A stretch of DNA of 64,000 nt, taken from positions 682,001 to 746,000 of the forward strand of contig NZ_CP083663.1 of NCBI RefSeq assembly GCF_020097815.1, written 5' to 3'. This document shows positions 33,216 through 33,764 of this stretch, one piece after another. Source of the DNA: Haloprofundus salinisoli. Lineage in GTDB: Archaea; Halobacteriota; Halobacteria; Halobacteriales; Haloferacaceae. Position 1 is the stretch's first letter, and each line of letters begins with the position of its first letter. The position numbers and the translations under genes were made by a program. The notes under the pieces were generated by a model that saw only the letters and a list, made by a program, of their open reading frames with translations, was not told the DNA's origin and ran no database searches.

Positions 33216-33668
33216 CTACCCCTGTTCGACCCGCCGAAGCGCGGCGGCCACGTCCTCGGGCGTCGCCCCTCGTGCCTCGATCCGGTGGTCGGGAATCAGC
33301 AGCGGAACCGGGTTCGACCGCAACGCGTTCTCGACCAGTCGGATATCCTCTTCCTCGTCGGCGTCGAGTCCGGCCAACCGCGCCAACCGTTCGACGGAAA
33401 TCGTCTCGCCGTAGGGGACGTTCCGGACCGCCTCCAGCACCCCCCGCCGGTCGGTCGGCACCGTCAGCGCGACGGGCGCGTCGTCGAAGTGGTCCTCTGC
33501 GCCGTCGAGATAGTCGAAGATGCGGTCTAGGAGGGGGTGGTCGGGCTCCGCGTCGTCGGGCACCGAGTCGAGAAACGAGACGTCGATGACGCGGCCACCG
33601 GCGACGCCGAGTTGGACGACGCCGTCGAGCGTCGGCGACTCGCGCGCGTAGATTCCTGCGTCTTCCAT
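33216..33668 (-). CDS. MGMT-family protein lacking the active-site cysteine (alkyltransferase-like)
   Basis: A 150-residue protein with the DNA-binding C-terminal domain of O6-alkylguanine-DNA alkyltransferases: LEAVRNVPYGETISVERLAR (HTH and Tyr/Arg region) and RLVENALRSNPVPLLIPDHR (Asn hinge and active-site loop). The invariant PCHR is PDHR here, so the alkyl-accepting Cys is Asp and suicide transfer is impossible. Alkyltransferase-like proteins with a substituted Cys bind O6-alkylguanine and hand it to nucleotide excision repair, which would be the best guess. The N-terminal part (ARESPTLDGVVQLG) is a reduced domain. ATG 33668 is preferred to the ATG at 33689. Confidence 0.85.
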   Translation of the reverse strand: MEDAGIYARESPTLDGVVQLGVAGGRVIDVSFLDSVPDDAEPDHPLLDRIFDYLDGAEDHFDDAPVALTVPTDRRGVLEAVRNVPYGETISVERLARLAGLDADEEEDIRLVENALRSNPVPLLIPDHRIEARGATPEDVAAALRRVEQG

Positions 33669-33746
33669 GCTCGACTCCTGTGCGGGCACGGTATTGAAAG
33701 GGGCGCTCGCCGTCCCACAGACGCAACTCTTATGAACAGATTAGTG

Positions 33747-33764
33747 CATTAGTGTACATCAATG
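33747..33764. promoter_or_regulatory. Imperfect palindrome centred on TGTACA over the trp operon start
   Basis: CATTAGTGTACATCAATG has 14 of 18 bases in dyad symmetry around TGTACA and covers the predicted transcription start and the trpC ATG (33762). A TATA-like CTCTTATGA lies about 30 nt upstream, and ATTAGTG is repeated twice just before the site. TGTACA is the core of the TRP box bound by TrpY in Methanothermobacter; whether a related factor exists here is not known. Confidence 0.45.

Follow-up and report, generated by a model that had tools for sequence, protein, structure and literature searches.

The gene considered here, from the haloarchaeon Haloprofundus salinisoli, has two groups of described proteins as its closest counterparts. 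One consists of the Ogt alkyltransferases, as seen in S. solfataricus (4zyd, 4zye) and M. tuberculosis (4bhb, 4wxd), and the other of the alkyltransferase-like proteins (ATLs), as seen in S. pombe Atl1 (3gva, 3gx4) and V. parahaemolyticus (2kif). Some ATLs carry alanine at the nucleophile site. Passages of a 2023 review describe ATLs as resembling the C-terminal domain of alkyltransferases, with the base-flipping tyrosine and the arginine finger kept, the asparagine hinge absent and mostly tryptophan at the nucleophile site (PMC10779285).

The haloarchaeal family to which the gene belongs, mostly with aspartate at this site, shares with the Ogts a two-domain fold over its whole length, the P-x-H-R motif, the asparagine hinge and the glutamate. 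Unlike them, it has the cysteine exchanged for aspartate, the flipping tyrosine for valine, leucine and other residues, a deleted active-site loop, an unconserved arginine finger, an acidic recognition helix and an N-terminal domain that is equally constrained. With the ATLs it has in common an MGMT-type C-terminal domain devoid of the alkyl-accepting cysteine. In contrast to ATLs, however, it carries Asp, Ser or Thr rather than Trp, has lost the tyrosine, does not conserve the arginine finger (the protein studied here has Arg), retains the asparagine hinge in 130/130 relatives and keeps an N-terminal domain matching that of Ogts. This pattern appears to be nearly the reverse of that of known ATL proteins, and membership of that group was rejected on four features, namely the replacing residue, the tyrosine and arginine finger, the asparagine hinge and the additional N-terminal domain.

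Read from the sequences, the family is a clade-wide conversion of an Ogt which lies outside the definition of ATLs and is much wider than one gene. It presents an ordered series, from Cys to Ser, Thr or Asp, in which a suicide enzyme would be losing its chemistry while its fold is still under selection. Because the essential MGMT cysteine is mostly Asp in haloarchaea, the usual DNA repair would be impossible for these proteins and another job is probable. A literature search returned no paper joining alkyltransferase-like proteins with haloarchaea, or an MGMT family protein with an archaeon, though print may hold some; C145D occurred in none of the matches listed, which does not prove its absence from print.

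The locus and its product

The window analysed is a stretch of 64,000 nucleotides of contig NZ_CP083663.1 (positions 682,001 to 746,000). The gene lies on its minus strand, with an ATG start at 33668-33666 and a stop codon at 33218-33216, and encodes 150 amino acids. This ATG is preferred over an upstream in-frame GTG since many relatives start at the equivalent methionine (MEDAGIY...). The features of the gene are as follows, all on the minus strand and with human MGMT numbering in brackets:

33216..33668, minus strand: the whole gene (150 aa plus stop), whose MGMT/Ogt-fold product has Asp where the nucleophile Cys would stand (PF01035, AlphaFold and PDB matches)
33288..33290, minus strand: Asp127, codon GAC, at the position of the nucleophile (C145; sequence, alignments and family counts)
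33285..33287, minus strand: His128 (H146), in 130/130 relatives (alignment and family counts)
33312..33314, minus strand: Asn119, the asparagine hinge (N137), in 130/130 relatives (alignment and family counts)
33225..33227, minus strand: Glu148 (E172), in 130/130 relatives (alignment and family counts)
33393..33395, minus strand: Val92 where the base-flipping Tyr (Y114) is expected (alignment and family counts)
33339..33341, minus strand: Arg110 at the arginine-finger position (R128), Arg in just 25/126 crown relatives (alignment)

Pfam PF01035 matches residues 75-133 (E 2.4e-11; 43.7 bits against a curated cut-off of 27), and the NCBIfam ogt model TIGR00589 scores under its cut-off (34.3 against 46.4). 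In the alignment with human MGMT, IPDHRI stands opposite IPCHRV, such that the PCHR motif reads PDHR. The original prediction, an MGMT-family protein with Asp in place of the alkyl-accepting cysteine, is thus borne out by the open reading frame, PF01035 and the human MGMT alignment; its corollary that suicide alkyl transfer is ruled out would also hold, given Asp and no Cys at the site. Although it carries an MGMT Pfam match, this protein of nearly every haloarchaeal genome searched almost certainly does not act as a Cys-based alkyltransferase.

A displaced active-site cysteine was ruled out, as none of the 150 residues is Cys and the alignment leaves no ambiguity; the family alignment, suggested as a check with the prediction, has Asp in 121/130 relatives. 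Four relatives from the same genus, 87-91% identical, all have Asp at the nucleophile site. Since turning GAC into a Cys codon takes two or more base changes and these four relatives agree, a sequencing error is very unlikely, and with Asp conserved across genera neither such an error nor a pseudogene was retained as an explanation.

The AlphaFold model has a mean pLDDT of 96.2, and its top PDB matches are complete two-domain Ogts: S. solfataricus 4zyd (Z 17.3, 138 residues aligned, rmsd 2.1, 23% identity) and M. tuberculosis 4wxd (Z 17.3, 136 aligned, 24% identity). The three ATL chains listed align with residues 70-150 only (3gva: Z 8.9, 72 aligned). According to the secondary-structure string of the model, a short helical turn begins at Asp127. 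The replacements found at site 127, Asp, Ser and Thr, are all residues that commonly cap the N-terminus of a helix, which suggests a structural role for the site.

The nucleophile site across the family and its history

The family was read in 130 distinct relatives, a count that excludes the window's own protein (copies L002 and L020), the truncated or split sequences L014, L103, L104, L105 and L109, and identical sequences; the bacterial L016 and L018 served as outgroup rows outside the count, and the bacterial L019 was removed. At the nucleophile position, 121 relatives have Asp, five Ser, two Thr and two Cys, and Trp, Ala, Glu and Asn occur in 0/130. A main group of 126, here called the crown, comprises the 121 Asp rows and five with Ser or Thr. 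In conservation, the Asp column ranks 26th of 151, with 25 columns more conserved. Conversely, all 20 relatives read from outside the haloarchaea in the same phylum have the cysteine, the tyrosine and the arginine finger (20/20 each); these rows were chosen from the listed best matches to the Cys-bearing L079, a choice by which a non-Cys relative outside the haloarchaea could be missed. Single sequences also vary beside the site: L064 and L139 read IGDHR for IPDHR, with the proline before Asp changed, and L092 reads PDHC.

A tree of 95 rows (56 family, 20 archaeal and 19 canonical Ogt sequences) was built with the nucleophile column removed and without L183 and L185, which read poorly. In it the haloarchaeal family forms one clade (100/100, the bootstrap being not fully settled), within which a basal group with Cys, Cys, Ser and Ser (99/83) stands apart from a crown clade of 52 rows (99/96), 47 with Asp and five Ser/Thr rows nested among them. 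The nucleophile state requires at least five changes on this tree. As Cys was read only in the basal haloarchaea within the family and in 20/20 non-haloarchaeal relatives, the simplest history would be one in which Asp was acquired once, on the stem of the crown (the main haloarchaeal clade), Ser or Thr then arose three times inside the crown, and Ser independently replaced Cys within the basal group.

The best explanation of the gene's origin is that it is the haloarchaeal ortholog of an ordinary archaeal two-domain Ogt/MGMT. The basal genes L106 and L107 adjoin nmnat, with L107 also near lonB, and both nmnat and lonB neighbour crown genes on the same side, in a different order and orientation. 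This synteny gives modest support for orthology, since order and orientation differ and the other two basal loci have neither nmnat nor lonB.

Active-site and DNA-facing residues

Within the former active site, the equivalents of N137, H146 and E172 occur in all 130 relatives, R147 in 129/130 and P144 in 128/130; five columns are invariant across the 126 crown rows, the histidine and the glutamate among them. Other elements have gone. The equivalent of the base-flipping Tyr114 is found in 0/126 crown rows (Val in 93) and in 4/4 basal rows, and the active-site loop around G156-Y158 is absent in 126/130 family rows. Arg occupies the arginine-finger position in 25/126 crown and 0/4 basal rows, and at this position canonical haloarchaeal Ogts (the own-genome L001 and L171-L190) have Arg in 1/19 and Val or Ile in 18/19. 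Since these Ogts keep their cysteine without the arginine finger and the window protein itself has Arg110, loss of the finger need not abolish repair and says little.

Furthermore, acidic residues in the recognition-helix segment at positions 106-118 average 3.9 over the 52 crown rows and 5.0 over the four basal ones. The corresponding means are 0.9 for the 19 canonical haloarchaeal Ogts and 0.1 for the 20 rows from other archaea. Salt adaptation alone fails to explain this acidity, as the Ogts live in the same salty cytoplasm. Two Cys-bearing basal members already have an acidic helix, which indicates that the acidity preceded the loss of the cysteine and that it is no proof by itself of lost DNA repair. 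At the position of human G131, Arg is present in 108/126 crown and 4/4 basal rows, with Glu in the window protein. The order of loss suggested by these counts would be the arginine finger and the charge of the DNA face first, followed by the tyrosine, the cysteine and the loop.

These features run against the statement that the rest of the DNA-binding domain is intact: the tyrosine is Val92, the arginine finger is unconserved in the family, the active-site loop is missing and the recognition helix has turned acidic. The idea of an ATL whose base recognition has changed, also proposed from the sequence, fits no better, with the tyrosine lost, the arginine finger unconserved, the asparagine hinge and the N-terminal domain kept and the helix acidic. 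The further claim that Asp differs from the residues of known ATLs draws, for alanine, on general background. For tryptophan it stands, in line with the passages of the review cited above (PMC10779285).

Constraint was compared between the two domains using pairs with a C-domain identity of 0.4-0.6. In the crown, mean identity is 0.515 in the N-terminal and 0.516 in the C-terminal domain (987 pairs). Ordinary Ogts are far more variable in the N-terminal domain: the canonical haloarchaeal ones give 0.401 and 0.553 (50 pairs) and those of other archaea 0.270 and 0.508 (172 pairs). The four basal rows, with all six pairs taken, give 0.481 and 0.652 and are closer to the ordinary Ogt pattern; over all 52 crown rows, the means are 0.533 and 0.548. 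The equal constraint in the crown is read as a new function involving the N-terminal domain, and the spread of constraint to this domain suggests a new role.

Distribution and the separate canonical Ogt

Among 391 haloarchaeal genomes, one per species and sampled evenly across the class, the family is present in 390 (E ≤ 1e-3), including 377/377 of good quality; the sole genome with no family match is 88% complete. No internal stop was found in family genes among the matches listed. In two genomes the family member is split in two pieces (L103 of G316; L104 and L109 of G369), by a frame change in one genome, and in the other by a gap with the reading frame unchanged; either decay or an assembly error may lie behind this.

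A separate intact ogt, which the original prediction had suggested looking for, was found in the same genome (L001, 1501-1740, with PCHR). This canonical haloarchaeal Ogt belongs to the same Pfam family as the Asp protein and has PCHR and the tyrosine intact in 19/19 sequences read; it forms its own clade (100/99) and, unlike the Asp family, is patchily distributed, with L001 homologs (E ≤ 1e-12) in 141/391 genomes and no match in 250/391. A survey with PF01035 gave a match in 389/391 genomes (E ≤ 1e-3) and, in per-genome rows read by eye, at most one match in each genome outside the 141, so most of the searched genomes appear to have the family protein as their only MGMT-fold protein. In the four basal genomes, this sole MGMT-fold protein carries Cys or Ser.

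The trp neighbourhood

Gene order was read in 90 loci of at least 3.2 kb, with recognised copies and fragments removed and L029 and L091 counted as Asp upon reading. The gene is often divergent from trpCBA, and the lonB side is also often kept. It is divergent from trpC at less than 500 bases in 67/81 Asp loci, 1/5 crown Ser/Thr loci and 0/4 basal members, and the adjacency is commoner in Asp than in crown Ser/Thr loci (Fisher p 0.006, uncorrected for kinship). Loss of trp genes behind the Ser/Thr members was rejected, as trpC is present in 22/22 genomes examined, including all Ser/Thr ones read.

In the window, positions 33733-33758 between the gene and trpC hold a trp operator-like element, TGAACA-N5-GTGC-N5-TGTACA, directly before trpC. 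Its consensus runs from CGCAAG and a TATA-like CTTATG to TGTACA, GTnC and TGTACA at steps of about 10 bases, and almost all of the 89 distinct intergenic sequences of 40-260 bases, taken from 108 stretches, have conserved it; at least one of the 89 does not fit in this register (minimum training score -38.6). A second, weaker copy precedes trpD (L191) in the same genome. Where the gene is not close to trpC, the element still stands at trpC in 17/17 crown genomes examined, scoring 10.6-39.2 compared with at most 6.0 in 20 shuffles each (L193 was omitted, the gene being adjacent there), and it is absent at trpC in 4/4 basal genomes. These copies in 17/17 crown and 0/4 basal genomes indicate that the element arose on the same branch as Asp. 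Upstream of the family gene it was not found in 19/19 genomes examined in which gene and trpC are apart, and thus there is no sign of autoregulation. An autoregulated trp repressor was accordingly rejected, the element staying with trpC in the separated genomes. The element is taken here as a putative tryptophan operator that follows trpC rather than the MGMT-like gene. A published passage mentions TrpY homologs of unexamined function in haloarchaea (PMC6737238), and another puts LrpA2 of H. salinarum forward as the regulator for aromatic amino acids (PMC4162585); both are ready alternatives for binding the operator.

Possible functions

The reading preferred here, to which an even chance is given, is that the Asp protein is a non-catalytic binding protein. 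As far as the history can be read from sequence, the basal haloarchaeal members already lack the arginine finger and have an acidic recognition helix, and on the crown stem the gene would then have lost the suicide cysteine (to Asp), the base-flipping tyrosine and the active-site loop. The protein appears to have been kept nearly everywhere since, with an invariant Asn-His-Glu core and constraint on the N-terminal as much as on the C-terminal domain. Asp127 may cap the short helical turn that formerly bore the nucleophile and, together with His128, Glu148 and Asn119, would keep the core of the former active site rigid. The working surface would have shifted from the minor-groove interface of MGMT to one including the N-terminal domain, and on account of this shift a protein or small ligand is a more likely partner than O6-alkylguanine DNA. 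The changes argue against recognition of O6-alkylguanine in DNA in the known mode; with the helix-turn-helix remaining and Arg conserved at the human G131 position, the protein may still bind nucleic acid in some other way. Counted against a binding protein are Arg110 of the window protein and the 25 columns that outrank the Asp column.

Two other readings keep DNA as the partner. The protein could be a non-canonical alkyltransferase-like lesion sensor which binds O6-alkylguanine unrepaired and passes it to nucleotide excision repair. Such a sensor would account for an MGMT fold without a nucleophile and for the invariant Asn, His and Glu. In addition, 250/391 genomes have no canonical Ogt match (E ≤ 1e-12), yet H. 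salinarum NRC-1, stated in a passage of a 2010 study to have no homolog of yeast MGT1, was put through survival assays with MNNG doses of up to 600 mg/L (PMC2816208). This sensor is nevertheless rather unlikely: the tyrosine is missing in 126/126 and the arginine finger in 101/126 crown rows, the loop is deleted in 126/130 and the recognition helix is acidic, whereas ATLs keep both tyrosine and arginine finger and do without the asparagine hinge, as the review passages have it (PMC10779285), and PDB matches to ATLs span residues 70-150 only. A trans-acting regulator of tryptophan synthesis, whose helix-turn-helix would have been recruited to the TGTACA-type operator of trpC and trpD, is suggested by the divergent arrangement within 500 bases of trpC (67/81 Asp loci, compared with 1/5 crown Ser/Thr loci) and by an element that is conserved before trpC, weaker at trpD and arises on the Asp branch. 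We consider it distinctly unlikely, however, as none of the 19 separated genomes examined showed the element upstream of the gene, the recognition helix is acidic, TrpY homologs (PMC6737238) and LrpA2 (PMC4162585) compete as regulators according to the passages cited, and adjacency to trpC may be inherited gene order, the lonB side often being kept too.

Haloalkane dehalogenases use an Asp nucleophile and an ester intermediate that is hydrolysed by activated water. By the same chemistry, Asp127 could attack the alkyl carbon and the resulting ester be hydrolysed by water that His128-Glu148 activates, making this protein a turnover enzyme. The 121/126 crown rows with Asp and none with Glu, Asn or Ala, along with His and Glu invariant in all 126, would be in keeping with such an enzyme, but the Ser or Thr in 5/126 crown rows would not be expected to perform it, the pocket loop is deleted, the flipping tyrosine is lost and the substrate is hypothetical, which makes it very improbable. 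It is just as hard to credit in the wider form of an ancestral suicide alkyltransferase turned turnover dealkylase or hydrolase, with Asp127 as nucleophile, His128-Glu148 activating water and an alkylated substrate that either is not DNA or is bound in a different way. The poorest candidate by far, scarcely credible at all, is a decaying remnant without function. Catalytic and lesion-recognition residues have indeed been lost, and the gene is in two pieces in two genomes; yet it is kept in 390/391 genomes with no internal stop among the matches listed, its two domains retain identities of 0.533 and 0.548 over 52 crown rows, and five columns are invariant in 126.
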